From Novosphingobium sp. (lineage in GTDB: Bacteria; Pseudomonadota; Alphaproteobacteria; Sphingomonadales; Sphingomonadaceae): a stretch of DNA of 64,000 nucleotides. The stretch is taken from assembly GCA_026400375.1 (NCBI GenBank), contig JAPLPG010000239.1, forward strand, positions 1 to 64,000, given 5' to 3'. Below, in pieces: positions 14,161 to 63,117 of the stretch. The position numbers and the translations under genes were made by a program. The stretch's first letter is position 1, and every line of letters begins with the position of its first letter. The notes beneath the pieces are model-generated. The model searched no databases, was not told the DNA's origin, and saw nothing but the letters and a program-made list of their open reading frames with translations.

Positions 14161-14238
14161 GGCGCTGCGTTGGCAGATTGCTCTTGACGGTCAACCGCCA
14201 ATGCCGCGCTGCAGCAAAAAGAGTTCAGGCCCAGGCCT

Positions 14239-16258: not shown

Positions 16259-16335
16259 GGTCATCCTCTCTCACGGGCCGCGGCTTTGCGCACGGTCCCT
16301 TTCACAATGACAAGCTGCCACAACCTACACCAATG

Positions 16336-18551: not shown

Positions 18552-18596
18552 GGATCATCGCCTAGCGATAGGCGATGAACGAGCGAGGCAGCAAGT

Positions 18597-46170: not shown

Positions 46171-47220
46171 GTGCAGCTTACCGATTTCGCAGGCTTCCCC
46201 AATCTCGTTGCGATGTTCCTGGACCGCGCAGACCATCGCGGCGACAATCCGTTCCTGTGGGCCAAGAAGCAGGGCAGCTGGCAATCGATCAGCTGGGCCG
46301 AAGCCGCGCGGCAGGTGTGCGTGCTGGCCGAATCCCTGCGCAAGCTGGGGCTGAACCCGGGCGACCGGGTGGCGCTGGTTTCCGAAAACCGGCCCGAATG
46401 GTGCATTGCCGACCACGCGATCATGGCCGCAGGGCTGGTGACGGTGCCGACCTACGTGACCAATACCGAGCGCGACCACCTGCACATTCTGGAAAACTCC
46501 GGCGCGCGGGCGGTGATCGTATCGACCGCCAGGCTTTCCCAACCGCTGCTGCCCGCCGCGCTGGCCGCGCCATGCGTGGAGCATGTGATCGGCATGGAGC
46601 CGATGCGCCAGATGCAGGCGGGCAAGCTGGCGTTCCACGACTGGCAGACCTTGACCGCCAGTGACGGGGATGGTGGCGATGGCGTGGCGGCCCGACGCGC
46701 GGTGGATGCGCGGCTGGCGGCAATGGGACGAAACGATCTGGCCTGCATCATCTATACCAGCGGCACCGGCGGTTCCCCACGCGGGGTTCGGCTGCACCAT
46801 GGATCGATCCTGTGCAATGTCGAAGGGGCAGCCTACATCCTGGCCGAGGATCTGGGCTGGGGCGACGAGGTGTTCCTGTCGTTCCTGCCGCTGTCCCACG
46901 CCTATGAGCATACTGGCGGACAGTACCTGCCGATCGGCATGGGCGCGCAGATCTATTATTCGGAAGGGCTGGAAAAGCTTGCATCCAACATCGAGGAAGT
47001 GCGCCCGACCTTCATGGTGGTGGTGCCGCGCCTGTTCGAAGTGCTGCGCACGCGCATCATCAAGCAGGTGGAAAAGCAGGGGAAGGTGGCCAACTACCTG
47101 ATGGACCGGGCGCTGGGCATCGGCGGGCGCAAGGCTGCGGGCAAGGGCCGGATCATCGACCTGCCAATGAGCCTGATCCTCGACCGCACGTTGCGGCCCA
47201 AGATCAAGGCGCGATTGTGA
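46171..47220 (+). pseudogene. Long-chain acyl-CoA ligase (AMP-binding), 3' truncated at the prophage boundary
   Basis: CIIYTSGTGGSPRGVRLHHGS and FLPLSHAYEHTGGQY present; ORF ends after DRTLRPKIKARL with no adenylation C-terminal subdomain; phage-like DNA follows. Confidence 0.85.
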
Positions 47221-47586
47221 CGGGACGAGAGTGATTGGAGTGGCGGGGATATGCGGGGAGATGTGGGGAGATCGGTGAAAATCGAGGGTTTTCGGGGGTT
47301 TCTTCGGTGGGTGGGCCGACTGGGCGGCGCGGATGAGTGTTTAGAGTGGGTGGGCATTTAGACGATGAAAATGGCTTGTTGGGCGCTCAGCGCATCGTGA
47401 GAGGGGATTTTGAGAGGGTGCCTCTTAAAGCCCATAAAATGGGCGTTTGAGCGCCTTTCATGCGCTCAGCGACCCGGTTCGCGGCGGTAGATGCCCAAAA
47501 AGTGAGCAGGCCGGATTGTCGCAGTTAAGATTTTGACGAAGTGCCCGGTTTTCGGGCGTTTTGCGTGAAGGCAAAGCACGCAGGCC

Positions 47587-47610
47587 CTGTCGAACTGCGA
47601 CAGCTTTTTT
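47587..47610 (+). terminator. Rho-independent terminator near prophage left end
   Basis: CTGTCG-AACTG-CGACAG followed by CTTTTTTC. Confidence 0.75.
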
Positions 47611-47623
47611 CCCGTCTCCTGCC

Positions 47624-47929
47624 CTATCGGCGTCGATTGATGGTGTCAGTAATTGCGGCTGCCGAGACCAAGATGATGCCTGATAACCACAGAAAACAAC
47701 CGCCCATAAACTGCACTGCGCGCATGTTCTGATCTTCAATCTCTGAGGCTGATGTCGCTAAGATCGAGCTGCCCAAAAGGATCGCAGCGCAAACAAGCAT
47801 CAGCAGACCCGGTAGGCGAAGGCGACTGGGTTTTGGCGCAAGGTCAAGTTCATCCGCTTCTGGCCAGGCAAGCCACCCGACCAACACAATTGCCAAAGCA
47901 AGGATGCCAAATACGACCGCCTCGGACAT
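47624..47929 (-). CDS. Small membrane protein downstream of repressor (lysogenic conversion or exclusion candidate)
   Basis: Three hydrophobic segments; ATG overlaps repressor stop. Confidence 0.75.
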   Translation of the reverse strand: MSEAVVFGILALAIVLVGWLAWPEADELDLAPKPSRLRLPGLLMLVCAAILLGSSILATSASEIEDQNMRAVQFMGGCFLWLSGIILVSAAAITDTINRRR

Positions 47930-48615
47930 CACAGTCTCCTAACCACTGCGATCACGCGGCCAAAGATGTTGAGCTCGCCGTCGTAGGCAGTTTCTGGTGC
48001 AACGTTTGGATTGTCCGAGAGCATCTTCACGCCTCCATCCGGCATTGGTCTCAGTCGCTTGATCACGGCAGTGTTGCCGTAGTAGGCGGCCCAACAAAGA
48101 TCGCCGTCGTAAACCTCACGCTGGCCGCGATCGATGAGCACTACATCCCCATCGCCAATCGTCGGGTACATGGAGTCGCCGCGCCCTCGCGACCAGCAAA
48201 GCATGTTCGGGGGATGCGGCGTTATCATTCGGAGCCAAGATCGGGGAAAGTCCAGAGCCTCAGCCTGATCCTCAAAAATCTCAGTATCGATGATCGACGC
48301 GCCCATGCCGAAGCTCAAGTCAATCATGTGAATGGGAACCATGTCGTCATCGTTAGACGGTGCTTGGACTGGCTCCTGCGAAACCGGTGCGGGCAGCGAC
48401 CCTTCAAGCAGGGTATGATCGTCGGTTTCTTCCAAGAGATACTCTGGCGTCGTTCGCAAAACCCGGGCGATTGAATGCAGGTGCAAAGTGTTCCGCGTCT
48501 TGCCCGTCATCATGCTTGATATCGTCGGCTGAGCCACGCCCGCGCGGCGAGCAAGCTCAGCACCAGACATATCCAGCAGCTTCAGTCTTGCCCTGATCCG
48601 GTCACCTAATGCCAT
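47929..48615 (-). CDS. Prophage repressor, XRE HTH plus S24 LexA-like domain
   Basis: MSGAELARRAGVAQPTISSMMTGKT HTH; RGDSMYPTIGDGDVVLIDRGQREVYDGDLCW...AVIKRL. Confidence 0.94.
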   Translation of the reverse strand: MALGDRIRARLKLLDMSGAELARRAGVAQPTISSMMTGKTRNTLHLHSIARVLRTTPEYLLEETDDHTLLEGSLPAPVSQEPVQAPSNDDDMVPIHMIDLSFGMGASIIDTEIFEDQAEALDFPRSWLRMITPHPPNMLCWSRGRGDSMYPTIGDGDVVLIDRGQREVYDGDLCWAAYYGNTAVIKRLRPMPDGGVKMLSDNPNVAPETAYDGELNIFGRVIAVVRRL

Positions 48616-48637
48616 CCCGATTACCTATCGGCGCTTC

Positions 48638-48689
48638 TATAATAGCGCTCTATTAAAGTTTTGATTGCAAGCTATCGAAGAATTGATAG
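48638..48689. promoter_or_regulatory. Candidate repressor/Cro operator region
   Basis: TAATAG-CGCT-CTATTA (48640-48655) overlapping TATAAT (48638-48643); CTATC-N8-GATAG (48672-48689). Confidence 0.55.
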
Positions 48690-48699
48690 ATTGCCACAC

Positions 48700-48945
48700 A
48701 TGGCTATCAGCAACCCACCACTCGAAGCACTACGGCGGCTTGAAGCTGCCGCAGGATCGCAAAGCGCGCTGGCCCGTGCGCTGGGAGTTTCCCAGCCAAC
48801 GGTCTGGCACTGGCTGAATGTCAGCCGTCGCCTCCCAGCAGAGAAGGTACTCAAGGCAGAGCGCCTTTATGGCGTTTCACGGCATGAGCTGCGGCCTGAC
48901 ATCTACCCTGTCGAGCGCCGCCGTGCGCGGAAGGCGGTGGCGTGA
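48700..48945 (+). CDS. Cro/YdaS-type HTH protein
   Basis: AAGSQSALARALGVSQPTVWHWLNVSRRLPAEKVLKAERLYGVSRHELRPDIYP. Confidence 0.9.
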   Translation: MAISNPPLEALRRLEAAAGSQSALARALGVSQPTVWHWLNVSRRLPAEKVLKAERLYGVSRHELRPDIYPVERRRARKAVA

Positions 48946-48957
48946 TGGCTGCCGATA

Positions 48958-49413
48958 TCAGTCGTCCTCGTTTTGCAGGCCTTCGCCTAGTGGGTCAGTG
49001 CCATCCTCGTAAGGCCAGAACGGGGGATGAAGCTCAACGAACCGCAGATAATCGTTTGCTGCCTGCTGGGTCAGGCGATGATCGGGCATCTTCAGATAGT
49101 GAAGATCAGCCATTTCCTTGGCATGAAACAGCCAATGCACCGCGCATTGAACACGCTGAATTGCGCAAAGCAGAAGGCTGTGACGCAGCAATTGACTGGG
49201 GGCGTCTTGAACTGCCTGCTCTCGTGCCTTTGGCGGCAGCCCGATCAGTTCAAGCAACAGCTCGTCATTCCGAAGCGCAAACTGGCGGATGCCCTCCCGG
49301 CCTAAAAGTTCGCAGCTGTGTTTCAGGGCCTCCATGTCTTCGCGTTCGATGGCAGCTCTCCACCACTGAAGCTGGCGACCAACCTGGGCAATGTTCCGAT
49401 CAAGGTCCGACAT
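48958..49413 (-). CDS. Hypothetical protein, antisense within the phage early region
   Basis: 151-aa ORF with well-formed helical protein composition; overlapping plus-strand ORFs look non-coding. Confidence 0.65.
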   Translation of the reverse strand: MSDLDRNIAQVGRQLQWWRAAIEREDMEALKHSCELLGREGIRQFALRNDELLLELIGLPPKAREQAVQDAPSQLLRHSLLLCAIQRVQCAVHWLFHAKEMADLHYLKMPDHRLTQQAANDYLRFVELHPPFWPYEDGTDPLGEGLQNEDD

Positions 49414-49508
49414 ACTGTTCCTTTGGCGCTGCGAATCAATTTCGCTGGTTTCGCTGCCTGGATACCGAAGCCTGCCTTTCTGCTCATCGTTTAAGTGAGA
49501 CCGAATAA

Positions 49509-50591
49509 ATGACTGTGACTACCCATACCCCGGCAGGCGGCGAAGTGTTGCTGCTGCCTGTGAGCGAGATCGACCCGGACGGGATCGAGCGCATCGGGTT
49601 TTTTCATGACAAAGAAGTGGCCACGCTGGCCGATCTGATCAGCAGCGACGTGCAGCTTGAGCCCATCGTGATTGCCGCGCCTGCGCCACGATCAAAAGAC
49701 CGGCGCTGGCGGCTGGTAATCGGGCGGCATCGGCTTGCCGCGTGTGCGATGCTGGGCATCGAGGTGCTGGCGCGGGTGGTGACCGGCACCAATGACGAGC
49801 TGCTGCGGATGCAGACGGCAGAGCAGCTTGACCGGCGCGATATGACAGTGCTGGAGCGCGCGGCCTTTGTGGGGCGGCGGGCTGAAATCATCCGTGAACG
49901 CTTGATGAAAGAAGCGGGTGCCGACAACGATCAGAGCCTAGGCGGTCGCCCGAAAAAACTATGGACAGATTTGTCCATAGTTTCTGAAGACGGTCTCTCA
50001 GACGCGGATAAAGCCCTTCTGGCGAAGCTGCCAAAGCAGGCAGGCCTCGCTCCGCAGCCACTGACGGGCGTGCCGAAGGAAGAGGTCGAAGCGGACGTTG
50101 CTGCCGTGGCCGAACGGTATGGCTGGCGCGCGGAAGTTGCGGGTGAGTTCAACCTGCACTTCAAGAAAATGGACCGCCTGCTGACGATCTATCGCGGGCT
50201 GATCAAGCCGCTGCGCGCCGAATGCGAGGCGATTGCGCAGTGCCGCATTGCCAACAATGCCGACGGACTGCTGCAACTGGCGGGCAAGGCCGAAGCGGTG
50301 CGGCGCGTGGCGCTGGGCTGGCTGGCGCAGAACCCGGATGCAAAGACTGCCGAGGAAGCGCTGGTGGCGCTGGGCCTGTCCAGTTCCAAGGGCGCGCGCG
50401 AGGCCGACCGGCTGGAAGGCGAAAGCAAGTTTCTGACGCGGGCGGAGAGCAACCTTGCGCGGCTGACGCCCGGCACTTGGACAAGCTGGGCACCGAAGCT
50501 GGCCGAAACGATCAAGCCATCGGCGCTGCTGGCGGTGCGTGATGCCATCGACGCGCGGATCGCGGCGCTGGCCGCGAAGGGTGGCAAGTGA
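49509..50591 (+). CDS. ParB-like nuclease domain protein
   Basis: VSEIDPDGIERIGFFHDKEVATLADLISSDVQLEPIVIAAPAPRSKDRRWRLVIGRHRLAACAMLG. Confidence 0.85.
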   Translation: MTVTTHTPAGGEVLLLPVSEIDPDGIERIGFFHDKEVATLADLISSDVQLEPIVIAAPAPRSKDRRWRLVIGRHRLAACAMLGIEVLARVVTGTNDELLRMQTAEQLDRRDMTVLERAAFVGRRAEIIRERLMKEAGADNDQSLGGRPKKLWTDLSIVSEDGLSDADKALLAKLPKQAGLAPQPLTGVPKEEVEADVAAVAERYGWRAEVAGEFNLHFKKMDRLLTIYRGLIKPLRAECEAIAQCRIANNADGLLQLAGKAEAVRRVALGWLAQNPDAKTAEEALVALGLSSSKGAREADRLEGESKFLTRAESNLARLTPGTWTSWAPKLAETIKPSALLAVRDAIDARIAALAAKGGK

Positions 50592-50908
50592 TGGCAAAGC
50601 GCAACAGGATCGTCGCGCCGCCACAGCCCGCATGGGACTGGTTCTGCAAGCAGCCGCATGCCGCGCGCCAAGCGGCCATCCGTCGCCATACCGCGATCGA
50701 GAAGGTCCGCGCGCTGCAGGACAACGGATACACGCTGAGCGCAGCGATTGCGGTCGTTTCGGTGGAGCATGGCGTGTCCACGGTTACGCTGTGGCGCTGG
50801 CACCGGCTGACGCGCGGTGTGGTGCACAGCGACCGGCGCGCGCAAATGGCGGCGCTGTGCCTGCGCCCGCGCAAGGCTGCGCACAAGTTCGGTGCAGATG
50901 CGGAATGA
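50591..50908 (+). CDS. Small HTH-containing phage protein
   Basis: HTAIEKVRALQDNGYTLSAAIAVVSVEHGVSTVTLWRWHRLTRGV, similar to the DNA-binding domain of Mu-type transposases. Confidence 0.7.
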   Translation: MAKRNRIVAPPQPAWDWFCKQPHAARQAAIRRHTAIEKVRALQDNGYTLSAAIAVVSVEHGVSTVTLWRWHRLTRGVVHSDRRAQMAALCLRPRKAAHKFGADAE

Positions 50909-51210
50909 TCGGCCTGACGCCCCGGCAAGCTGATCTGCTGCGGTTCATCCGTGGCTATCAGATTGCGCGTGGCGGGGTTTCGCCATCGGTGCGGGAATGC
51001 CAGCGCGGGCTTGGCCTGAATAGCACCCAGAGCATCCACCGCATGATGGTGTGCCTGGAAGAGCGCGGGGCGATGCGGCGGGCGCGCAACTGGGCGCGCG
51101 CGATCGAAGTGCTGATGCCTGTGCCGGTTCCTTCGATCAATGGATCGCCGCTTTACGTGGTGCCGATGGTCGGCGTCCGTGCCGTTCGTTTTAGTGAGGA
51201 GCGTTTGTGA
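50905..51210 (+). CDS. LexA-type winged-helix DNA-binding protein (no protease domain)
   Basis: GLTPRQADLLRFIRGYQIARGGVSPSVRECQRGLGLNSTQSIHRMMVCLEERGAMRR. Confidence 0.8.
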   Translation: MIGLTPRQADLLRFIRGYQIARGGVSPSVRECQRGLGLNSTQSIHRMMVCLEERGAMRRARNWARAIEVLMPVPVPSINGSPLYVVPMVGVRAVRFSEERL

Positions 51211-51617
51211 TGGTTGCACTCAGCTTCAAGGGCCAATTTGCCGAGCCTATCCTGAACGGCACAAAGCGCCAGACAGTGCGGGTGCAGCGCAAGCGCCCAC
51301 CGCGCGTGGGTGAGCGGCTGCAGCTGTATGTCGGCATGCGCACCAAACAGTGCCGCAAGATCATGCCTGATCCGATCTGCACCGAAGTGTGCCTGATCAT
51401 GATCACGGTGGATACCAGCCACCCAGAACTGATCGCGGGAATCACGTTCGATAATCGGACGCACCTTGGCAACGAAGCCATCGAAAGCTTCGCCGTGGCC
51501 GATGGCTTTTCGGCCAGCGATAACTGCAGTGCGCGCCGGGCCATGGGCAACTTTTGGATGCGCCACCACGGGCCGGGCGAGTTCATCGGCCATTTGATCC
51601 GTTGGGAGGCCAAGTGA
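51210..51617 (+). CDS. ASCH-like domain protein
   Basis: MVALSFKGQFAEPILNGTKRQTVRVQRKRPPRVGERLQLYVGMRTKQCRKI. Confidence 0.6.
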   Translation: MVALSFKGQFAEPILNGTKRQTVRVQRKRPPRVGERLQLYVGMRTKQCRKIMPDPICTEVCLIMITVDTSHPELIAGITFDNRTHLGNEAIESFAVADGFSASDNCSARRAMGNFWMRHHGPGEFIGHLIRWEAK

Positions 51618-51850
51618 TGGTCCAGTCTCTCGCAGAGCGATTCCGTGCTGCGCGGGTGGCCTTTGAAGCGGCGCAGCGGATGGGATGCACACCGCGCGAG
51701 GCTGCTGCGCGCCTGCGCTGGCAGGAAACCGATCGCCGCCTGCGGGCGCGCAAGGCGATGATGGACAGCAGCGCGCGGCCTGCCGTGACCCGCGAGGTCG
51801 AGCAGCCCGAAGAACCGGCGCTGTGGTGGCAGCGGGGAGATATGGCGTGA
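51617..51850 (+). CDS. Small hypothetical phage protein
   Basis: Start/stop overlaps with neighbours in a compact operon. Confidence 0.6.
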   Translation: MVQSLAERFRAARVAFEAAQRMGCTPREAAARLRWQETDRRLRARKAMMDSSARPAVTREVEQPEEPALWWQRGDMA

Positions 51851-52155
51851 GAGACGAATTTCACCCTTCTCAGGAGCTACTGAGAGAGGCGCACGCGATT
51901 GTCGACAGTGACGAAGTGCTGCGCGTCTACACGGCATCGGAGTGGGACGAACTGAGCGAGGACGGCCAAGTCTGGATCGCAGCGATCGTGAAGCTGGCGC
52001 AGGATCGGGCGCGCGGCGTGAGCGCCGAAATTGTCACTCTGCCGGTGTTGCCGATCAGGCTCGTGAATGTGCCGCGCCGGTCGGAAGACCCGCGTTTGGC
52101 GCGGGGCAATGACAATTCCCGCACCGGTCCTGACCTTTTGGGGGATGGGCTGTGA
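51847..52155 (+). CDS. Small hypothetical phage protein
   Basis: GTG start overlapping previous stop; VRDEFHPSQELLREAHAIVDSDEVLRVYTASEWDELSEDGQVWIAAI. Confidence 0.6.
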   Translation: MRDEFHPSQELLREAHAIVDSDEVLRVYTASEWDELSEDGQVWIAAIVKLAQDRARGVSAEIVTLPVLPIRLVNVPRRSEDPRLARGNDNSRTGPDLLGDGL

Positions 52156-52421
52156 GCCGCTGGCGCGACGCCGCGCGGGCATTGATTGCGGTGCTGACGC
52201 GGGATTTACCTGCGGATGCCAGCTTGAAGGACCGGCGCAAGGCGCTGTGGGGCAAAGGCTATCCTGCGCATCAAGGCACCGTGTGGGGCCGGAAGGTGTG
52301 GGGGCAGGAAGTGCGCAAGTATCTTGCCAGCAACGGCGATTCGACCGCGCGCGTTTCGAACCGCCCTGTCGCATGGCCGGAGCATGTGCATTTCCCGTTC
52401 CGTGAGGGCACCGATGCCTAA
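52152..52421 (+). CDS. Small hypothetical phage protein
   Basis: 4-nt overlap with previous gene; MSRWRDAARALIAVLTRDLPADASLKDRRKALWGKGY. Confidence 0.6.
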   Translation: MSRWRDAARALIAVLTRDLPADASLKDRRKALWGKGYPAHQGTVWGRKVWGQEVRKYLASNGDSTARVSNRPVAWPEHVHFPFREGTDA

Positions 52422-52869
52422 GGCGCGGGCGCATCCTGACCAGTTGGCGCTGAACCTCAGCACGCCGACCATGCTGACCGGCCCTGCCGCGTTGGCGGGG
52501 CTGGATGCGCGAGTCTGCCGCACGGTGGGCACCATTCTGGCTAGTGATGGCAGGCCGCGCGAGGTGATCGCGGCGGAACTTTCGGTTCTGCTGAACGACG
52601 AAGTGAGCAAGCCGATGCTGGATGCCTATTCCAGCCCGGCACGGATGGACCATAAAGTGCCGGTAAGCCGGTTCCTTGGCCTGCTGGCGGTGACGGCGCG
52701 CGTCGATCTGATGAGCCCGCTGGTGCGCGAGATCGGGGCGACGCTGCTGATCGGCGAGGAAGTGAAAACCGCGCGGCTGGGCCATCTGCGCCAGCAGGCG
52801 CGCGAGATCGCCACCGAAATTCGTGAACTTGAGCAGTCGGCTCCAATGATCCGGGGGAATTTGCGTTGA
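52414..52869 (+). CDS. Hypothetical phage protein preceding the transposase
   Basis: ATG overlaps upstream stop; 151 aa helical protein; overlaps transposase start. Confidence 0.7.
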   Translation: MPKARAHPDQLALNLSTPTMLTGPAALAGLDARVCRTVGTILASDGRPREVIAAELSVLLNDEVSKPMLDAYSSPARMDHKVPVSRFLGLLAVTARVDLMSPLVREIGATLLIGEEVKTARLGHLRQQAREIATEIRELEQSAPMIRGNLR

Positions 52870-54863
52870 GCGCGGCAGAGGTCATCTACCCAGAACAGTT
52901 CGCGCAACCTGCAGCTGGGCCGAAGGAATGGTTTTCGGCTGCCGATCTTGCCGATCTGCGCCTGCCGGGCCTGCCTGCCGAAGTGCGTTCGGTGCAGCGT
53001 AGGGCGGTGGACGAACGCTGGGGCGAGCGCCGCAATCTGGCAGGCGAACTGCTGGCCCGCCCGCGCGGCGCGCGCGGCGGAGGGCTGGAGTTCCATCTGG
53101 AAGTGCTGCCGATTGCAGCGCGGCAGGAGCTGATCCGGCGCGGGATCAGCTCAGAAACCGCCGAAGCAGCGGCAGCACTGAGCGAAGCCGAAGAGCTTTG
53201 GGAATGGCTGGGCCATCAACCTGACAAGGTGCGTGCAGAAGCGCAGAAGCGCCTTGATGCGGTGAGCGAGGTCCACCTGCTGCACGGGCAAATGAAAGTG
53301 GCCAAGGGCATTGCCGTTCGCGAAGTGGCAGCCAAGCACCGCGTCAGCCAGGCCACGCTGTGGAACTGGTGCAAGGCGGTGATTGGTGTGGAGCGCAAGG
53401 ACTGGCTGCCTGCGCTGGCCCCGCGCCGCAAGGGTGGCGGCAAGGTTGCCGATATTCCCGACGAGCTGTGGCAGTTGTTCAAATCAGACTGGCTGCGGCT
53501 TAGCCAGCCTCCCATCGCTGCCAGTTACAAGGTGGTGAAGCGCCGGGCGAAGGCGATGGGCGTAACGCTGCCAAGCGTGCGCGCGTTTCAGCGCAGGATA
53601 GAGCGCGAGATCGACCCGTATGTGGTGATCCTTATGCGCGAAGGCCGGGAGTCGCTGGAACGCCACGTGCCATCGATCCGGCGCACGGTGACCGATATCA
53701 GCGTGATGGAATGGGTGAACATCGACGGACACGTGTTTGACGTGAAAGTGAAGCACCCTGACACCGGCAAGGATATCAGGCCAACGCTGGTGGCCATTCA
53801 GGACGTGCGCAGTTCAAAAATCCTCGCTTGGCGGGTGGGCGTGAGCGAAAGCGCGGCGACGGTGCGGTTGGTGTTTGCCGATTTGATCCGCGAGTGGGGC
53901 ATCCCCGCCGATATCATCTTGGACAATGGCCGTGGCTTTGCAGCGAAGTGGCTGACGGGCGGCGCATTGACGCGATACCGGTTCAAAATCCTGCCCGAAG
54001 ACCCGCAAGGGCTGCTGGTGCAGTTGGGCGTGAACATCCACTGGGCGACGCCGTTTCACGGTCAGGCCAAGCCGATTGAACGCGCCTGGGGCGACCTGTG
54101 CAACTACATTGCGAAGAGCGCCGAGGTGGACGGCGCGTACACCGGCAATTCCCCGGTCAACAAGCCCGCCAACTATGGCAGCCGCGTGATGGAGTGGGAT
54201 GAATTCTGCGCGCTGGTGGACCGGGAGATTGCCGAACACAACGCCAGTGAAGGTCGCGCGGGCCGTGATTACAAGGGCCGCAGCTTTGACCAGGTGTTTG
54301 CAGAAGGGTGGGCCGATGCGGCGGTCAAGCAACCGAGCCGCCAGCAGCTGCGCGACAGCCTGCTGGCCGTAGAGCGCAAGCGTGGCAATACCAAGGATGG
54401 CGAAATCAGCCTGTTTGGAAACCGATATTGGTCAACAGAGTGCCGCCAGATCGCGGGCAAGTATGTGACCGTGCGGTTTGACCCTGACGATCTGCACACT
54501 GAGGTCCATATCTATGGCGAGAACGGGGCCTACCTGTTCAGCGCGCCGGTCTTGGCAGACTACGGCTTCAAACAGACCGAAGGGTCCAAGGTTGTGCAGA
54601 AGCGCCGCGCGCATGTGCGGAAACTGGCGAAGACGATGGCGGAAGCACAGGAACTGCTCGATCCGTCCGAAGTGGCACGGATCAAGGCCGGTGTGCCGGT
54701 GGCTGAACCGAAAAGCGTGGGGAGGCCCGGCGCATCGATCGGCGTCATCACGCGCAAATCATCGGCAGTGCCGAAGCCCGAGCCGCATGCACCGGAAAAA
54801 CAAGTCAGAGCATCTGCATCAAGAGTTTTTGCCGCGCTGGGAAAGCCCCGGCTGGTGAAATGA
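52866..54863 (+). CDS. Mu-type DDE transposase (MuA-like)
   Basis: N-terminal HTH segments; catalytic region VNIDGHVFDVKV (D), ADIILDNGRGFAAKW (D), FHGQAKPIERAWGDL (E); Mu C-terminal domain. Confidence 0.95.
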   Translation: MSAAEVIYPEQFAQPAAGPKEWFSAADLADLRLPGLPAEVRSVQRRAVDERWGERRNLAGELLARPRGARGGGLEFHLEVLPIAARQELIRRGISSETAEAAAALSEAEELWEWLGHQPDKVRAEAQKRLDAVSEVHLLHGQMKVAKGIAVREVAAKHRVSQATLWNWCKAVIGVERKDWLPALAPRRKGGGKVADIPDELWQLFKSDWLRLSQPPIAASYKVVKRRAKAMGVTLPSVRAFQRRIEREIDPYVVILMREGRESLERHVPSIRRTVTDISVMEWVNIDGHVFDVKVKHPDTGKDIRPTLVAIQDVRSSKILAWRVGVSESAATVRLVFADLIREWGIPADIILDNGRGFAAKWLTGGALTRYRFKILPEDPQGLLVQLGVNIHWATPFHGQAKPIERAWGDLCNYIAKSAEVDGAYTGNSPVNKPANYGSRVMEWDEFCALVDREIAEHNASEGRAGRDYKGRSFDQVFAEGWADAAVKQPSRQQLRDSLLAVERKRGNTKDGEISLFGNRYWSTECRQIAGKYVTVRFDPDDLHTEVHIYGENGAYLFSAPVLADYGFKQTEGSKVVQKRRAHVRKLAKTMAEAQELLDPSEVARIKAGVPVAEPKSVGRPGASIGVITRKSSAVPKPEPHAPEKQVRASASRVFAALGKPRLVK

Positions 54864-54935
54864 GTTGGTGCGCGGGGCGGCCTAGGAAACTGACCCCGCG
54901 CACCTGTCCCCCAAACAGAGACAGGAGTGTCTAGC

Positions 54936-55859
54936 ATGGAAGCGAGTACGGATAGAAACCCGTTTATCGAGGAACAGCGCCAGTGGCTGGTGCGGTTCAA
55001 GGAAGAGGCGGATTTCAGCTGGCCACAACTGGCCAAGCGGATCGGCAGGCCTGCGGGCACGCTGAGCCAGTTCGGCAGCGCCAAGGGTTACAACGGCGAC
55101 GAACTGGGCGTGGCCGAGAAAGTGAACGCCTTCCGCCAATCGCTTGAAAAGCAGCGTGCGCTGGCGGCGGAACTGCCCGAAGTGCCGGGATTTTTCCGCA
55201 CTGAAACGACAGACAGGCTGGAATACATGCTGCGGTTTGCGCAGATGGGACAGATGGTGGCGGCGGCGCTGGAAGCCGGATGCAGCAAGACTGAAACCGC
55301 GCAGGCCTATACCCGTAAAACGCCCAACGTGTTCTATGTAGAGCTGCGCAAATCCGCTGGCGTCACGAACAACATGCTCAAGATGGTGCTTGAGGCGATG
55401 GGCGTGAAAGACCCGAAGGGCGGCACGTTCGACATGTCTGCGCAGGTTTGCGAAATCCTGCGGAAATGCAGCAAGCCGCTGATCATCTTCGACGAAGCGC
55501 AGCATCTTACCGAGGCGTCGCTGGAAGAAATCCGCAGCTGGCCCGACACCCTCGACGGTGCCCGCGCCGCGATTACCGGGATCGCTTTCTTCGGCAACAT
55601 CGGCATTCTGCAGAAGCTGGCGCGCTATGCCCAGCTTTCGAGCCGCATCCGTCTGCGGCACGAACAGCGCACACCGATGCCTGCCGATATCGAGGCGCTG
55701 GCCGATGCGTGGGGTGTCAGCGACGAAGCGAGCCGGAAGCAGCTGCACGTCGTTTGCAGCCGTCTGGGCGGGCTGCGCACTGCGGAGGACGTGCCGCTCG
55801 CTCTCGACCATCTGGAAGACGCATGGGCGGAACTCGATTTCCGGGCGGTGGCAGCATGA
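54936..55859 (+). CDS. MuB-like AAA ATPase / transposition target protein
   Basis: N-terminal HTH (SWPQLAKRIGRPAGTLSQFGSAKGYNGD); Walker B KPLIIFDEAQHL; atypical P-loop EAGCSKTETA. Confidence 0.9.
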   Translation: MEASTDRNPFIEEQRQWLVRFKEEADFSWPQLAKRIGRPAGTLSQFGSAKGYNGDELGVAEKVNAFRQSLEKQRALAAELPEVPGFFRTETTDRLEYMLRFAQMGQMVAAALEAGCSKTETAQAYTRKTPNVFYVELRKSAGVTNNMLKMVLEAMGVKDPKGGTFDMSAQVCEILRKCSKPLIIFDEAQHLTEASLEEIRSWPDTLDGARAAITGIAFFGNIGILQKLARYAQLSSRIRLRHEQRTPMPADIEALADAWGVSDEASRKQLHVVCSRLGGLRTAEDVPLALDHLEDAWAELDFRAVAA

Positions 55860-56299
55860 GCGGCCCCAAGATCGGAGTGCCGCTGATGGACGGCGTGGCC
55901 TCGCTCATGATGGATGCTCTCAGGCATGCTGCCGAACACGCTGCCGAACGCTGCGAGCACAACCTGACGGTTTCGGTGAGTCTGCGCCCCGGTGGCTTTG
56001 TGGTGATGGGCCGCGTGGAGCTTGCGCTGGTGGGCTATAACTACGAGTTGGCAGTGCCTTATGTCACGATGGAGGTTGAACCGACGGCGCTGCTCGTGGG
56101 GGTCGAGAAAGTCGCGGACTTGTTGCAAGAGCGTCGCCGTTCACTCGGAATGCTCACAGTGACCGTCTCGCCTGCTGGCCAAAAGCCTGAGGTTAACCTG
56201 ACTGAGCACAGTCACTGGAGCTATTTCGACAAGGCGGTGCGCGCGTTTGCCGTGCTGGCGATCGTGGTCTGCATTCCGCTGGCGGGAGGGCTGTTCTGA
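55856..56299 (+). CDS. Hypothetical phage protein with C-terminal TM
   Basis: Overlaps MuB-like stop; hydrophobic AFAVLAIVVCIPLAGGLF tail. Confidence 0.65.
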   Translation: MSGPKIGVPLMDGVASLMMDALRHAAEHAAERCEHNLTVSVSLRPGGFVVMGRVELALVGYNYELAVPYVTMEVEPTALLVGVEKVADLLQERRRSLGMLTVTVSPAGQKPEVNLTEHSHWSYFDKAVRAFAVLAIVVCIPLAGGLF

Positions 56300-56616
56300 T
56301 GGACATCAAGCCCAAGTTCACGCCTGGTCCCTATCGGATTGATGACCATTCTGACGATTGCTTCGAAATCGTCGGTCGGCCCACATGGCCTTGCACCCGC
56401 TTCGGAGTGAAGGGCGAATGGGGGATTGCGAGAACCGACGATCTGATGTGCGATTACCCCGAAGAAGCAGCTGCGAATGCGCGCCTTTTGGCAGCATCGC
56501 ACCAACTCTTTTGGTTTGTTGCAGCGGTCGCCAAGAAAAATCCTGTGTTCGCGAATTCGCGCGAAAAGGAGCGCATTGCGGAAGCGCGTCGCCTGATCAA
56601 ACAGGTGCTATCATGA
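56299..56616 (+). CDS. Hypothetical phage protein
   Basis: MDIKPKFTPGPYRIDDHSDDCFEIVGRPTWPCTRFG...AANARLLAAS, typical of small phage-encoded proteins. Confidence 0.65.
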   Translation: MDIKPKFTPGPYRIDDHSDDCFEIVGRPTWPCTRFGVKGEWGIARTDDLMCDYPEEAAANARLLAASHQLFWFVAAVAKKNPVFANSREKERIAEARRLIKQVLS

Positions 56617-57029
56617 TCGGCGGCGCACCCTTCTGGCGGGATGGCGATCAGCGCCAGTCTTCGCTGCCCGCGCTACGGCCTGTTGCCGACAGGCCGGTGT
56701 GGGTTTCGCCTTCGCGCGTGATCGCGTTTGTCTGCCTGTTCTACCGGATCGAGGAAGCGGCGTTCTTTGCGCATCGCCGTGCCGACGAACTGGTGGCGGC
56801 GCGGGCGCTGGTGGTGTGGCTGTTGCGGCAGGTTCCGGCACAGCCGATGAACTATTGCCAGATTGGCCGCGCCATCGAGCGGGACCGCACCAGCGTGATG
56901 CACCTGCACAAGCATGTAATCCGGCTGCGACTGCAGGACCGCGCGTTCAAGCGCGTGGCCGAGGCCATGCGGTTCCACTTCACGCACATCTATTCCCATA
57001 TCGGAGGGCCTGATCATGCCAGCCTTTAA
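56613..57029 (+). CDS. DnaA domain IV-like DNA-binding phage protein
   Basis: ALVVWLLRQVPAQPMNYCQIGRAIERDRTSVMHLHKHV resembles the DnaA duplex-DNA binding signature region. Confidence 0.6.
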   Translation: MIGGAPFWRDGDQRQSSLPALRPVADRPVWVSPSRVIAFVCLFYRIEEAAFFAHRRADELVAARALVVWLLRQVPAQPMNYCQIGRAIERDRTSVMHLHKHVIRLRLQDRAFKRVAEAMRFHFTHIYSHIGGPDHASL

Positions 57030-57729
57030 TGCAGTGCAGGCCGCGCCTGCCAAGTTCGACGCATCGCAGCGCCGCCGCAGGTCGATGCTGGCGAAGGTTC
57101 ATATCGCCATCAAAGACCTGCGCATGGCCGAAGACGATTATCAGCAGATCGTCTTCGACAAGACAGGCAAGACGAGCCTTGAGGGTGCAACCGAGGCCCA
57201 GATCGGCAAGGTGCTCGACGTGATGAAAGCCAAGGGGTTCAAGCCGCTTCCGGGCAAAAACAAGGTGGCGACGCATCCGATGGCGCTGAAGGCGCGGGCA
57301 ATGTGGGAGTCGCTGTATCATCTGGGGGCGATCCGCAATCCGGCCTATGAGGCGCTGGAAGGCTGGGCGTGTCAACGGTTGGGTTGCGCCAAGCTGCAGT
57401 GGGCGAGGCAATCCGATGCCACCCGGATCATCGAGCCGCTGAAGGACTGGGCAAAGCGCGAAGGCTGGTTGCAACACAATCCGGCCACGGGACGAGCCTT
57501 GAGCCCGATCGAACTGAGAGCTTCGCTGTGCAGTGCCATCCTGCTCAAGTTGAAGGACGAAGGCGTGGTGCCGGGTGACTGGCTGTTGCACCATGCCGCA
57601 TGGCAGCTTTGCGGCATCGAGAACGCCAAGGCCGATCCGTGGACGGCCAGCGACTACGACCGCCTTGCCGCTGCACTGGGTGACAGGCTGCGTGCGCACA
57701 AAGCTGCAACAGGAGGTGCCCGTGGCTAA
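57016..57729 (+). CDS. Mu gp16/GemA family regulatory protein (DUF1018)
   Basis: LAKVHIAIKDLRMAEDDYQQIVFDKTGKTSLEGATEAQIGKVLDVMKAKGFK. Confidence 0.9.
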   Translation: MPAFNAVQAAPAKFDASQRRRRSMLAKVHIAIKDLRMAEDDYQQIVFDKTGKTSLEGATEAQIGKVLDVMKAKGFKPLPGKNKVATHPMALKARAMWESLYHLGAIRNPAYEALEGWACQRLGCAKLQWARQSDATRIIEPLKDWAKREGWLQHNPATGRALSPIELRASLCSAILLKLKDEGVVPGDWLLHHAAWQLCGIENAKADPWTASDYDRLAAALGDRLRAHKAATGGARG

Positions 57730-57946
57730 GATCGCAACTGCATTCGCCGACAATCGCGGTAACCTGCATCCGACGGCTGAGGCTGCGGTTCTTGCAGACC
57801 TGACCGTGATCCTTGGCCGCGTTGGCGCAGAAAGTTCGCTGACTGCCGGGCTTGCCCAGCGCATCATCGAGAAGCGCGCCGACATCGAGGCGGTGTTTGC
57901 CGACCTCGACGCAATGACGGGAGGCGAACATGCGCAAGCAGCGTAG
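57722..57946 (+). CDS. Small hypothetical phage protein
   Basis: GTG start overlaps gp16 stop; VAKIATAFADNRGNLHPTAEAAVLADLTVILGRVG. Confidence 0.6.
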   Translation: MAKIATAFADNRGNLHPTAEAAVLADLTVILGRVGAESSLTAGLAQRIIEKRADIEAVFADLDAMTGGEHAQAA

Positions 57947-58055
57947 CCCCGAGTATCGGGCTTTCAAGCGCCGCATCTGGATGTGCATCTATGCTTTCGT
58001 GCTGCTGGAGCTGATCGCCATCGGCGGCATTTTGCATCTTGGGGGCGTGCTGTGA
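57930..58055 (+). CDS. 41-aa single-TM phage protein
   Basis: MRKQRSPEYRAFKRRIWMCIYAFVLLELIAIGGILHLGGVL; overlapping starts/stops on both sides. Confidence 0.5.
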   Translation: MRKQRSPEYRAFKRRIWMCIYAFVLLELIAIGGILHLGGVL

Positions 58056-58351
58056 CGCGCCCGGTGAAGCACAAGCCGGTAGAGATATCGAACCATGCCA
58101 TGATGCGCTGGCTGGAGCGCAGTGGTGTGGTCGATATCGAGGCAATGCGCACGGCATTGTCTGCGGCGCTGGATCGGGCGGTTGCAGCCAGCGCGGCAAT
58201 CGGCGGCGGCGAATGTCTGATCCTGTCGAATGGGCTGGTTTATGTCGTGAGGGACAATGTGCTGATCACGGTTGTTCCTGACAACGGGCGAGGAAAGCAC
58301 GCGCGCAATTTTACCCATCATGCCAACCGCCCGACCAACGGAAACGTGTGA
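58052..58351 (+). CDS. Hypothetical phage protein
   Basis: GTG start overlapping previous stop; HAMMRWLERSGVVDIEAMRTAL...VRDNVLITVVPDNG. Confidence 0.7.
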   Translation: MTRPVKHKPVEISNHAMMRWLERSGVVDIEAMRTALSAALDRAVAASAAIGGGECLILSNGLVYVVRDNVLITVVPDNGRGKHARNFTHHANRPTNGNV

Positions 58352-58725
58352 TGGATGAAGGGCGGCTTACCATCCAGCTACAGGCAATCCTGGGCATGGA
58401 AGGCTACGTCCGTTTTTGCCAGGCGCTGGGCGGCACGCGCGTTTATGTCTCGCACCGTTTCAGTGATGATCACGCCGCCGTGGAAGCGGTGGGCCGGGAA
58501 AAGGCTGACAAGCTTTCACGTGCCATGGCACCGGCCACGATCCGCGTCCCGCTCGCCCGGCGCGAACGGGCGCTGTTCTATCGCAATTTAGGCCTGTCTG
58601 ACGCCAAGATTGCCCTGCAGCTGGGCATCACCGAAAACGGCGTGGGCAAGTTGTTCAAACGAGAGCCGGACTTGCCAGACCGGCCCGGATCGGCCAAGAA
58701 CGGGGCGCAGCTAAGCCTGTTCTAG
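58351..58725 (+). CDS. Mor-like transcription activator
   Basis: GGTRVYVSHRFSDDHAAVEAVG...RERALFYRNLGLSDAKIALQLGITENGVGKLFKRE (Mor/C-type HTH). Confidence 0.8.
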   Translation: MDEGRLTIQLQAILGMEGYVRFCQALGGTRVYVSHRFSDDHAAVEAVGREKADKLSRAMAPATIRVPLARRERALFYRNLGLSDAKIALQLGITENGVGKLFKREPDLPDRPGSAKNGAQLSLF

Positions 58726-58743
58726 TGCGCTAACAGGACTTCA

Positions 58744-58770
58744 GGCCCGCTTCGGCGGGCATATTTTTTG
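58744..58770 (+). terminator. Rho-independent terminator separating early/middle from lysis genes
   Basis: GCCCGC-TTCG-GCGGGC followed by ATATTTTTTG. Confidence 0.88.
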
Positions 58771-58862
58771 CCCCCCACAGACGCGACAGTCGGCCTATCG
58801 AAGGGGCTGGCGGCAGGACTTGCGACGCTGGCCCCGATCCAGATTTGGACGGGGTTCGGGCC

Positions 58863-59432
58863 ATGACGGCGAATGTGAACAAGCTGATCGACCGGGTGAT
58901 CGGTGTGGAGGGTGGATACGTCAACCATCCTGCCGACCGGGGTGGCGAGACGATCTGGGGTATCACCGCGCAGGTCGCCCGCGCCTATGGCTACACCGGG
59001 CCGATGCGCACCATGCCGCGCCCGATCGCCGCAGACATCTATCGAAAGCGCTTTTGGGATGAGCCGGGCCTTGCCCGTGTGGCCGACCATGCGCCGCGCC
59101 TTGCCGCTGAACTGTTCGATACGGGCGTGAACATGGGCACCAGCGTGCCCGGCCAGTTCCTGCAGCGCGTGCTGAACGTGATGAACCGGCAGGGGCGCGA
59201 CTATCCCGACATTCCGGTTGACGGGCGCATCGGCACGATGACCATCGCTTCGCTGCGCGCCTTCTTAAGCGTGCGGGGAGCGCCCGGTGAGGAGGTTCTC
59301 ATCAAGGCCTGCGAGGCGCTGCAGGGCGCACGCTACATCGGCATTGCCGAGGGCCGCGATAGCCAGGAAGCGTTCGTCTATGGCTGGATGGCACATCGCG
59401 TGGGCAACACCATGCAGGGTGCCGCCAAGTGA
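58863..59432 (+). CDS. GH108 endolysin (N-acetylmuramidase)
   Basis: VIGVEGGYVNHPADRGGETIWGITAQVARAYGYTGPM. Confidence 0.94.
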   Translation: MTANVNKLIDRVIGVEGGYVNHPADRGGETIWGITAQVARAYGYTGPMRTMPRPIAADIYRKRFWDEPGLARVADHAPRLAAELFDTGVNMGTSVPGQFLQRVLNVMNRQGRDYPDIPVDGRIGTMTIASLRAFLSVRGAPGEEVLIKACEALQGARYIGIAEGRDSQEAFVYGWMAHRVGNTMQGAAK

Positions 59433-59722
59433 CGTTCTGGGACTGGCTCTACAAGGTTGGCCCAGGCTGGCCTTCGCAGCGCGGGTGGTATGCGCTGGCG
59501 CTGTGCCTGCAGACCAGCGTCATCGTCGTCATGCTGGCGCTTTACCCGGAACTTAGCAGCAATGAGTTCTTCAAGGTCATTGCCAATGCTGTGATCGTGA
59601 CGGGCTGGGTCGGCTACGCCGTGGCAGGCCGCGACAATACCGTTGACCGCGAACAGGTGGGCAAGGCCCAGGACATTGCCGCCAAGCTGCTCGATCAGCA
59701 GCGGACGGGAGGCGCGGCATGA
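59429..59722 (+). CDS. Putative holin / lysis-associated membrane protein
   Basis: Two TM segments, located between endolysin and spanin genes. Confidence 0.65.
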   Translation: MTFWDWLYKVGPGWPSQRGWYALALCLQTSVIVVMLALYPELSSNEFFKVIANAVIVTGWVGYAVAGRDNTVDREQVGKAQDIAAKLLDQQRTGGAA

Positions 59723-60336
59723 TCCGGGTTCTGAGAGGCCTGTGGCGCGGCGCGGGCATGAAGCCGATCCTTGGGCTGATTGGCATCATCGTGCTGCAGG
59801 CCGTGGCGATCTGGGCGATCACCGGCCAACGGACCCGGTTGCAACGCTGGCAGGACGATGTCGCGCAGGCCACGCGCGATGCCGCCGATCATCCCAAGCT
59901 GGCGACCAGCGCCGTGCCTCAGCAAATCCGCAATCTTGGCACTGCCATCACAAAAACGCGCAGCGCCATGTGGCAGGCCAAGGCCGAGGCCACGGCGGCA
60001 AAGCTGGCAGCTGACACAGCCAATGAAGCCCGCAGAAAGGATGCTGACTATGCGCTTTCCCCCGAACTGGAGCGCGGTTTGCGCCATGCCGATGCTTATG
60101 CTCGCGCTCAGCCTGTCACTGGCAGGATGCAGTGTGTTGCGCGAACCGGCGAAGTCGATCGAGGTGACGACAGGCGCGGCGATCTGCCCGGCACCGCCGA
60201 TCCCACCTCGGTCGCTGACGGACCCGGTGCCGAACCTGCCCTGGTATTCGTCCCCCGATCCGCGATCGACACCTGCACAACGTTGAAAGTCCGGCTCGAC
60301 AATGCCCATGACTGGGCAGTTGGTCGCGGCCAGTGA
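59719..60336 (+). CDS. Rz-like inner-membrane spanin
   Basis: N-terminal TM anchor LIGIIVLQAVAIWAI plus helical periplasmic region; overlaps holin. Confidence 0.7.
   Translation: MIRVLRGLWRGAGMKPILGLIGIIVLQAVAIWAITGQRTRLQRWQDDVAQATRDAADHPKLATSAVPQQIRNLGTAITKTRSAMWQAKAEATAAKLAADTANEARRKDADYALSPELERGLRHADAYARAQPVTGRMQCVARTGEVDRGDDRRGDLPGTADPTSVADGPGAEPALVFVPRSAIDTCTTLKVRLDNAHDWAVGRGQ
60050..60286 (+). CDS. Rz1-like outer-membrane lipoprotein spanin, embedded in Rz in another frame
   Basis: MRFPPNWSAVCAMPMLMLALSLSLAGCSVLREPAKS...CPAPPIPPRSLTDPVPNLPWYSSPDPRSTPAQR: lipobox LAGC and Pro-rich tail. Confidence 0.75.
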   Translation: MRFPPNWSAVCAMPMLMLALSLSLAGCSVLREPAKSIEVTTGAAICPAPPIPPRSLTDPVPNLPWYSSPDPRSTPAQR

Positions 60337-60563
60337 GAGTAACCGAACGCATGATCGAGGCGGCTGCCGAAATGGTGGACCGCGAGCGTGACAACGAGAT
60401 TGCCCGCATTCAGGCCGAGCTTGCCGAAGAGGGCGAAGACTTCTGCATCGAGTGTGACGATCCGATCACGCCTGCCCGCAAGGCGGCGCTGCCTTCGGCG
60501 GAGCGGTGCATCCATTGCCAGGCAGAACATGAAAGGAAGGCGCGTGCAGCTCGCCACGGTTAG
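60333..60563 (+). CDS. TraR/DksA C4 zinc-finger protein
   Basis: DFCIECDDPITPARKAALPSAERCIHCQ. Confidence 0.9.
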   Translation: MRVTERMIEAAAEMVDRERDNEIARIQAELAEEGEDFCIECDDPITPARKAALPSAERCIHCQAEHERKARAARHG

Positions 60564-60903
60564 TCAATGGGTTTCGATTGTGGCGCTGCTGATTAGCATC
60601 GGCAATGTTTTGTGGGCGTGGTTCTCTCGCCCGGCGCGCGATCTGGGCACCCGCCTTGATCAGCACCGCACCGAAACCGACAAGCGGTTCGATGAAACCG
60701 AGATGCGGATCGATACCGCCTATGAGGGGCTTAAAGGCCACGACCGGCGCATCCAGCGGGTTGAGGACGATCTGCGCCACTTCCCGACGAAGGACGATCT
60801 GCAGGAGCTGGAGGTCAAGGTGATCGCCATCAAGACCGAGCTGGATATCGTGGCCAAGGTGGTTGGCCGGATCGACGATTTTTTGCGGAGCACGAAACCG
60901 TGA
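60544..60903 (+). CDS. DUF2730-type phage protein
   Basis: N-terminal TM, then coiled coil LDQHRTETDKRFDETEMRIDTAYEGLKGHDRRIQRVEDDLRHFPTKDDLQELEVKV. Confidence 0.8.
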   Translation: MQLATVSQWVSIVALLISIGNVLWAWFSRPARDLGTRLDQHRTETDKRFDETEMRIDTAYEGLKGHDRRIQRVEDDLRHFPTKDDLQELEVKVIAIKTELDIVAKVVGRIDDFLRSTKP

Positions 60904-61211
60904 GCAGCTATGAACAGAAGTGTCAGGAAGACGCCCGGCTTGCCATTCTTGCCGAATTGGCAGCGCAGCGTGATGCCACGCTGAACAGCCGATCGTTGGC
61001 CACGCTGGTTGACCAGGTCGTGCCACGCAAGCCACCCGAATGGGTGGAGACCCAGATCGACTGGCTGGAGAGCATGGGCGCGATCAGCGTTACCCGTTCG
61101 AACCTGCCCGGCCTTGGCCCGGTGTCGATCGCCACGATCAAGCAGCTCGGGCGCAATCACGTTGACCGCCGTCTCATCATCCACGGCGTGACTGTTCCTG
61201 CAGACCTGTGA
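60900..61211 (+). CDS. Conserved phage protein (wHTH-like, VpaChn25-type)
   Basis: ARLAILAELAAQRDATLNSRSLATLVDQV...WVETQIDWLESMGAISVTR...VSIATIKQLGRNHVDRRLIIHGV. Confidence 0.75.
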   Translation: MSSYEQKCQEDARLAILAELAAQRDATLNSRSLATLVDQVVPRKPPEWVETQIDWLESMGAISVTRSNLPGLGPVSIATIKQLGRNHVDRRLIIHGVTVPADL

Positions 61212-61870
61212 TGAGCGAGGAAACGCCCTCCGGCCCACAGGCCAACCCGCAAGACAGCCGCCGCGCCGGTCGCGGGCGGCTCTCGTCGATCGAGATGCTG
61301 CCCGAGGAGTGCGACGAGGATATCGCCTGGGCCAATACCGAGCTGCGCGAAAAGAAGATGCCGCAGACCGAAATCCTGCGGCAGTTCAATGCGCGGCTTG
61401 CTGATCGCGGGCTGAAGGGCATCAGCAAGGGTGCCTTCAGCCGCTGGTCGGTGCGCGTGGCGATCGAGATGCGCAAGCTGGACGCGAGCCGCCAGATCAT
61501 GGACGTGGTGTTGCAGCGGCTTGAGCCGGGCGAGCGCAGCGACAGTATGATCGCGGCAACCGAGCTGCTGAAGTATCGCATCCTTGAACAGGTCATGGCC
61601 GAGGATGAGCCGGACCCCAAGCTGCTGCTGAACGCCACGCTGGCGCTGCAGCGCCTTTCAGCCACCGCCGCGCGCGAGGCCGAAGTGCAGCGCCGTGACA
61701 AGCGCGACCAGCAGGCCGAGGCAGAGCGGCAGGCCGAGCAGGACAAGCAGGCGCGGGCCGAAGCCGAGGCGGCGACTGCGGAGCAGGTTGCGAAGATCGC
61801 CAGCGAAGCGGGCCTCAATGCCGAGCGCATCGCCGCGATCCGGCGTGGCGTGCTGGGGTTGGCGGGATGA
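61211..61870 (+). CDS. DUF3486 family protein (Mu gp27-like, small terminase position)
   Basis: RAGRGRLSSIEMLPEECDEDIAWANTELREKKMPQTEILRQFNARLADRGLKGISKGAFSRWSV. Confidence 0.9.
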   Translation: MSEETPSGPQANPQDSRRAGRGRLSSIEMLPEECDEDIAWANTELREKKMPQTEILRQFNARLADRGLKGISKGAFSRWSVRVAIEMRKLDASRQIMDVVLQRLEPGERSDSMIAATELLKYRILEQVMAEDEPDPKLLLNATLALQRLSATAAREAEVQRRDKRDQQAEAERQAEQDKQARAEAEAATAEQVAKIASEAGLNAERIAAIRRGVLGLAG

Positions 61871-62175
61871 AGCGCCACGCCCCATCACGACGCGGCACCG
61901 GCAAGTTGGTGCGGTCACAGCTCCAGATTACGCCGGAGCTGCAGGCTTTCGCACGGGACAACTATCCGATCCCGGAAGGCGTGAAGGTGTGGCAGGCGTT
62001 CGCCTGGAGCGATACTGCCGGATATCGGCGTCGCGTGCGGTTCTATTGCGACGACGGGCTGCAGATCGACGGCACTTTCAGTGCTGCGCGAGCGGATGGC
62101 ACCGGCTTAATGGTGCAGTACATCGGCAACTTCCGCATGAAGTGGAACCTGATCGCGCGGAAGGAACCCGCGTGA
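61867..62175 (+). CDS. Hypothetical phage protein
   Basis: Overlaps DUF3486 stop; 102 aa, aromatic-rich C-terminal half. Confidence 0.65.
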   Translation: MKRHAPSRRGTGKLVRSQLQITPELQAFARDNYPIPEGVKVWQAFAWSDTAGYRRRVRFYCDDGLQIDGTFSAARADGTGLMVQYIGNFRMKWNLIARKEPA

Positions 62176-62510
62176 AAGCCATCGCCGCCATCGACTTCGC
62201 GTGCAATGACCCGAGCAACGGCCTGTTCAATGGCCGCGCCGGTTCGGCAATGTTCGGCGATGTCGAAATCGAGGCCCCGATCTGGGAGGGCTATCGGTTC
62301 TCCGAGCTGCAGATGGAGCCAGATTTTGCGATCCGGCTGCACAGGATGACCTTCAAGGTCAAGGGCAAGCGCGAGTGGGTCGGAAACTGGTGTTGGAACC
62401 GGTACTTCCTGCCCCGCGCCGACATGAAGCGACTGCTGTTCTGCCTGCGCCGCAATGGCTGGCGCGTCACCTGTGGGCCTTCGCATTTCTGTCAATGGTG
62501 GAACGCATGA
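62172..62510 (+). CDS. Hypothetical Trp-rich phage protein
   Basis: GTG start overlapping previous stop; MTFKVKGKREWVGNWCWNRYFLPRADMKRLLFCLRRNGWRVTCGP. Confidence 0.6.
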   Translation: MKAIAAIDFACNDPSNGLFNGRAGSAMFGDVEIEAPIWEGYRFSELQMEPDFAIRLHRMTFKVKGKREWVGNWCWNRYFLPRADMKRLLFCLRRNGWRVTCGPSHFCQWWNA

Positions 62511-62827
62511 CTGATCAGCAAGCGCCCAGCTGCTCCGACTGCACGTATTGCTCGCATGGTTGGTGCGTCCGTTCCATTGGGCGGCACTTCAGTGTGGGCA
62601 GCAACAGTTATCGCAGCCGGTTGAACGTGAGCTGCGCGCACGAGCGTTCCAGCGAGCGCACGTTGACTGGGCGCTGGAAGTGCGGGCCGAGCGGGCGCTA
62701 CTTCGAGTCGAACGGCATCGACCTGCCGATGCGAGGCATGACCGGCACCGTGATCATTGACGAAGCTGCAGCGTTCCCGCGCGTGCATGACACCGTGGCC
62801 GACAGCGACGGGGATGATGGCGCATGA
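62507..62827 (+). CDS. Hypothetical Cys-rich phage protein
   Basis: CSDCTYCSHGWCVRS (CxxCxxCxxxxC) ... CAHE ... WKCGPSGRYFE. Confidence 0.6.
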   Translation: MTDQQAPSCSDCTYCSHGWCVRSIGRHFSVGSNSYRSRLNVSCAHERSSERTLTGRWKCGPSGRYFESNGIDLPMRGMTGTVIIDEAAAFPRVHDTVADSDGDDGA

Positions 62828-63117
62828 AACTGCCCGATGATCTTCTTCTGTCTGCACTGGCCAAATGGAGGGATGATCTTGCCCAAGAGGCAGCCGCGCG
62901 CGGTGAAGAAATGTTCATGGGTCTTCCTGACATTTGGTACGGGAACCCGCACTGGTTTTGCATCAACGGTCACGTTTCGCAGGTGGTCCTTCGTCGTGAA
63001 GGCGGGCCGTCTCGTTGCTTGGCTTGCAGGGGTGTCGTTTTCATCGGACCCGCTCTGTCAGAAGAAGACTTTGCACCCGTGCTTGCTGAAATCGCACAAA
63101 GAGTAGCAGGCGCATGA
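62824..63117 (+). CDS. Hypothetical zinc-ribbon-like phage protein
   Basis: WFCINGHVSQVVLRREGGPSRCLACRGVVFIGP; 4-nt overlap with neighbours. Confidence 0.65.
   Translation: MKLPDDLLLSALAKWRDDLAQEAAARGEEMFMGLPDIWYGNPHWFCINGHVSQVVLRREGGPSRCLACRGVVFIGPALSEEDFAPVLAEIAQRVAGA

Follow-up and report, generated by a model that had tools for sequence, protein, structure and literature searches.

A Mu-like transposable phage has almost certainly integrated, by strand transfer dependent on MuA and MuB, into a Novosphingobium gene for a long-chain acyl-CoA ligase, where it forms a prophage at positions 47216-84607. The window that we analyzed, a stretch of 64,000 nucleotides, corresponds to positions 1-64000 of a 116,133-bp contig (C260, the prefix used below for coordinates that run past it), and since it covers only the first 64 kb of that 116-kb contig, the missing half of the ligase could be retrieved beyond it. 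An earlier note, made from the window, had placed a Mu-like prophage inside the ligase gene; we now find both gene halves flanking the insert, and MuA and MuB genes within it. The junctions, the target duplication, the continuity of the gene, the end sequences common to sibling prophages, and the open frames of the genes for transposition and structure were all observed directly.

The split ligase gene and the limits of the prophage

The left half of the gene lies in an open reading frame on the forward strand (46171-47220; 349 codons, ending ...LILDRTLRPKIKARL before the stop), which is truncated, because its profile match to PF00501 covers only profile positions 3-271 of 384. R348 is the last residue encoded by the host; codon 349 (TTG) consists of one host T and the first two phage bases, TG, and the truncating stop TGA (47218-47220) is phage sequence just within the prophage, in keeping with the earlier description of a frame that starts at 46171, reads normally, and then stops, with only phage DNA after it. 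In intact relatives, residue 349 is F (TTT/TTC). With the C-terminal lid domain separated from the rest of the enzyme, we infer that ligase activity is lost.

Searching the entire genome for protein families located PF00501 positions 261-384 at C260:84543-84869, on the same contig and strand. As had been anticipated, the 3' half of the gene follows ...CA and GCGAT in frame from C260:84608; the separated part measures 262 aa (about 250 aa had been expected), matches AMP-binding and AMP-binding_C_3, and lies beyond an insert of 37.4 kb, within the roughly 45 kb downstream that had been allowed for. The in-frame continuation, predicted as GGRLKAMVSGGAPL, reads GGRMKAMVSGGAPL in translation after the right junction. 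Joining 46171-47215 to 84613-85400, so that a single GCGAT is kept, gives a reading frame of 1,833 nt (610 aa) whose sole stop is the terminal one, and whose near full-length alignments to 13 relatives, 77-88% identical in DNA, are free of gaps where the two halves meet. A matching ligase is present in 56 of 59 same-genus relatives, mostly in frames that stay open for some 600 codons or longer, and the nearest relative, 91% identical in protein to the left half, carries it intact within a 628-codon frame; prophage-free relatives thus keep an intact ligase, and the same truncated frame, which the earlier note had named as evidence against an insertion, did not turn up among them. The closest of the other AMP-binding genes in the host's incomplete genome is 28% identical.

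The right junction reads CGCGCGTCA/GCGAT/TTGGCGGGCGGATGAAGGCC (with ...TTTCGGCGCGCGTCA as the longer phage side), and therefore the phage ends with CA at 84607 and GCGAT occupies 84608-84612, an exact second copy of the duplication predicted at 47211-47215. The prophage is accordingly C260:47216-84607, 37,392 bp long with TG...CA ends. A duplication of 5 or 6 bp is the defining scar of Mu-like transposable phages (PMC8705779), and the class criterion allowed for 6 bp instead of 5 bp in B3-type Mu-like phages. The direct repeat at the ligase locus is itself 6 bp, GCGATT, and because the phage begins with T, this locus taken alone leaves a one-base ambiguity, which three siblings settle: G212, G116, and G197 have TG ends and repeats of precisely 5 bp. 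DNA similarity to sibling G011 sets in precisely at base 1 of the ligase-gene prophage, and similarity to G212 ends precisely at the final base of the same prophage.

The right junction, the sibling ends, and the end model described below agree on the terminus at 47216 that had been put forward as the best guess. A TG is also found two bases further in, and a phage start at 47218 (TGACGG...) had been named as the alternative; this we consider excluded, since it requires a GATTG duplication that is missing at the right junction, where GCGAT follows the phage end, and since in the siblings the TG precedes the end motif by 8 nt exactly, a spacing that corresponds to 47216 here. The host genome is a draft of 338 contigs, so that a phage contig misjoined into the ligase gene has to be weighed, but such a chimera would not yield TG...CA ends, a two-sided 5-bp duplication, and end motifs at the exact joints, nor halves of a single gene flanking the insert in one frame, and we regard it as very unlikely.

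Table 1. Features of the split ligase gene and its prophage (window positions, or contig positions where prefixed C260)
Feature	Position	Strand	Basis
Long-chain acyl-CoA ligase (AMP-binding), 5' half	46171..47215	+	348 codons + 1 base; PF00501; 91% identical relative
Left copy of 5-bp target duplication GCGAT	47211..47215	.	Junction reading; fits NYSRN
Prophage, within-window part	47216..64000	+	Both junctions read directly; sibling prophages match ends
Candidate transposase end site L1, GACGAGAGTGATTGGAGTGG	47224..47243	+	8 nt inside terminus; common to siblings; leave-out rank 1
Weak candidate second left-end site, CGGATGAGTGTTTAGAGTGG	47330..47349	+	Upstream of ATTTAGACGAT; self-match; low score
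CI/LexA-like repressor	47929..48615	-	HTH_3 + peptidase S24
Ner/Cro-like regulator	48661..48945	+	YdaS-type HTH
ParB-like protein, early region	49509..50591	+	phrog_3264
MuA-type DDE transposase	52866..54863	+	DDE_2, HTH_Tnp_Mu_2, Mu-transpos_C
MuB-type transposition ATPase, adjoining MuA	54927..55859	+	AAA_22, Phage-MuB_C; phrog_296
GemA	57016..57729	+	PF06252
Mor/C-like late transcription activator	58348..58725	+	phrog_836
Endolysin (glycosyl hydrolase 108)	58845..59432	+	Profile matches
Mu Gp27-like small terminase	61208..61870	+	PF11985; phrog_426
Large terminase	63114..64000, on to C260:64865	+	Open frame 583 aa; weak phrog_2 match, C-terminal part
Candidate right-end site R2	C260:84558-84577	-	End motif
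Candidate right-end site R1	C260:84580-84599	-	End motif
Right copy of GCGAT	C260:84608-84612 (outside window)	.	Junction reading
Ligase 3' half	C260:84608-85400 (outside window)	+	PF00501 match, right-junction sequence

Phage ends and target sites across the family

Alignment of the phage ends shows TG, six bases, and then a 20-bp motif near GACAAGACATTCTGGAGTAG, which is single at the left end and forms a tandem pair at the right end. Pairwise comparison of the ligase-gene prophage's own two ends did not reveal this motif, which emerged only via the siblings. Their position and conservation, by analogy with phage Mu, point to these motifs as putative transposase-binding sites. Sibling G212 has the same layout of a second left-end candidate ahead of ATTTAGACGAT, and three siblings have a further end-motif site, outside the training set, at 126-158 bp from their left end. 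Of the candidates in C260:44001-88000, a model built without the ligase-gene prophage places 47216 at the top and 84607 next; in 129,200 strand-bases of host DNA, the full end model gives zero above-threshold matches that have their TG. The TG precedes the motif by exactly 8 nt in the held-out Novosphingobium prophages G188, G172, G030, G195, G048, and G197, and exact 5-bp duplications were found in nine of ten held-out prophages from eight genomes in other genera of the bacterial family. The right end of sibling G489 was not obtained, and the model gave no convincing matches for the second MuA of G212 (G212b).

Counting the one in the ligase gene, 15 prophages of this phage family have exact 5-bp duplications, among them CTAGC (G212), TGCAG (G011), and TCCAC (G116), each with TG...CA ends, and GTCAC, which stands on both sides of the G197 prophage. 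Position 2 is a pyrimidine in 14 of the 15, and position 3 is G or C in 14. The full NYSRN pattern, the target consensus for Mu-like phages of Citromicrobium (PMC12486242), fits 8/15 duplications, GCGAT included, versus 0.188 expected per site (binomial tail 0.003). A prophage placed by a site-specific integrase, with GCGAT(T) serving as its short attachment core, would likewise be bordered by a short direct repeat on both sides, but the insert carries Mu-type transposase genes and its siblings occupy unrelated sites with differing 5-bp repeats, so that the probability of this origin appears close to negligible and Mu-type transposition remains our reading.

Several observations on insertion sites stand beside these results. 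GC-rich palindromic repeats of the CCCCTCCCGCAAGCGGGAGGGG type lie ~10-45 bp from the right junction in G212, G011, G116, and a second element of the same genome (C156), against a background in which 2.8% of host positions have one within 90 bp; they were not evident by eye in the right flanks of the other-genera prophages, nor at the ligase locus. We treat a target preference for such palindromes as a lead; Pseudomonas phage Ab30 has insertion hotspots beside REP-like palindromes (PMC5977238). The C156 element (L086, reverse complement 5159-19961) is Mu-like, 14,803 bp long, with both ends and the duplication ATGGG; it has a MuA (43% identical), a tape-measure-like ORF, and an ORF in the MuB position. 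Among its genes none for a terminase, portal, or capsid was recognized, and it looks like an internally deleted prophage. On one contig of G397 (~3017-3092 kb), two near-alike Mu-like prophages, flanked by the duplications TTCCG and ACGTG, run in opposite directions, their right ends near each other, and a third lies at ~1.75 Mb.

Tentatively, and with somewhat less than even confidence, we propose that the Mu-like phages of Sphingomonadaceae have in common an end-recognition sequence not described before (TG and six bases ahead of ~GACAAGACATTCTGGAGTAG, doubled at the right end) that would reveal exact ends and duplications in any genome, and that some of them settle by intergenic palindromic repeats, as is reported of Ab30.

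Gene content and known relatives

From left to right, genes for an S24-type repressor, a Ner/Cro-like protein, a ParB-like protein, MuA, MuB, GemA, a late activator, and a GH108 endolysin are followed by those for a Gp27-type small terminase, the large terminase, a Mu portal, a gpF-like protein, a protease/scaffold, and a gpT capsid protein, and then by tail genes, among them that for a tape measure of 1188 aa, and by the gene for the last large protein, of 1077 aa. This arrangement, with early genes on the left and head and tail genes on the right of a 37,392-bp element, fits the Mu-like layout (near 36-41 kb). The G+C content is 62.6% in the prophage vs 65.9% in the host part. The Pfam DDE_2 profile is matched in MuA over positions 3-221 of 221, and alignment to the Mu transposase structure 4fcy shows that the D, D, and E of the catalytic triad are all kept. 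The examined frames are open, and the prophage therefore looks complete; it may still be inducible.

No Mu-type contractile tail genes were recognized among the prophage genes scanned; the tape measure has a weak phrog_24 match, the remaining tail genes belong to generic or unknown tail families, and these matches suggest a siphovirus morphology. The gpF-like minor head protein (C260:66608-67864) has a C-terminal PBECR3 domain, a predicted nuclease (barnase/EndoU/colicin/RelE-like) fusion. The 1077-aa protein at the right end (C260:80946-84179), which has a weak, sub-cut-off match to the endosialidase beta-barrel domain PF12195, is possibly a receptor-binding or tail-tip protein.

Escherichia phage Mu is alike in its MuA and MuB, GemA, Gp27, Mu portal, and gpF- and gpT-type head, and it too has TG...CA ends, a 5-bp duplication, and two adjacent right-end sites. 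Unlike Mu, the ligase-gene prophage has a different end-site sequence, an S24-type repressor, and no recognized Mu tail genes; the MuA proteins of Mu_3F6 and D108 are about 33% identical to its own. The nearest MuA homologues in the phage collection are <40% identical: Thiobacimonas vB_ThpS-P1, Pelagibaca vB_PeaS-P1, Rhodovulum vB_RhkS_P1, and Sinorhizobium Aussie and StopSmel (38-40 kb) have MuA homologues, which are only 35-38% identical to that of the ligase-gene prophage. Both vB_ThpS-P1 and vB_PeaS-P1 combine ParB, MuA, MuB, and a Mu-type head with a siphovirus shape. StopSmel likewise has TG ends, the right one reading TGTAGC, but its end motif has a different core, TTCCGGAAT.

Closest are the prophages of Novosphingobium G212 (sp. 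NDB2Meth1) and G188, with MuA 71-72% identical and the end motif in common, although their insertion sites are elsewhere; the G212 prophage is 41,093 bp long, and its structural genes are only partly alike at the DNA level. Citromicrobium belongs to the same order as Novosphingobium. Its phages phiA, phiB, and phiC likewise have an alphaproteobacterial host, transposase-mediated integration, and 5-bp NYSRN duplications (PMC12486242), in a different host genus; phiA enters one 40-bp zone, whereas the family of the ligase-gene phage sits at scattered sites. No study devoted to Mu-like phages of Novosphingobium came up in a literature search.

Mode of insertion and its consequences

In phage Mu, MuA cuts the 3' ends and, with MuB, attaches them to target phosphates that stand 5 bp from each other; repair then makes a second copy of those 5 bp. 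The anatomy at the ligase locus agrees with this expectation. If this enzymology carries over, as the analogy with Mu leads us to infer, MuA would have linked the phage 3' ends, with MuB assisting, to target strands whose cuts were staggered by 5 bp, and gap repair would then have copied GCGAT onto both sides of the insert. The ligase is cut after codon 348, and the phage provides the truncating stop codon. The interruption of the ligase is an ordinary, routine Mu-type integration. Mu-like transposable phages are already known, and the end model is a modest extra.

The base-exact prediction made from raw sequence was borne out by data beyond the window, and exact ends are now given for a Mu-like phage group in Novosphingobium. 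With duplications recovered in most held-out prophages, the end model allows a family-wide survey of insertion sites. On the host side, the case shows that a ligase which most relatives conserve can be disrupted in at least some of the population.
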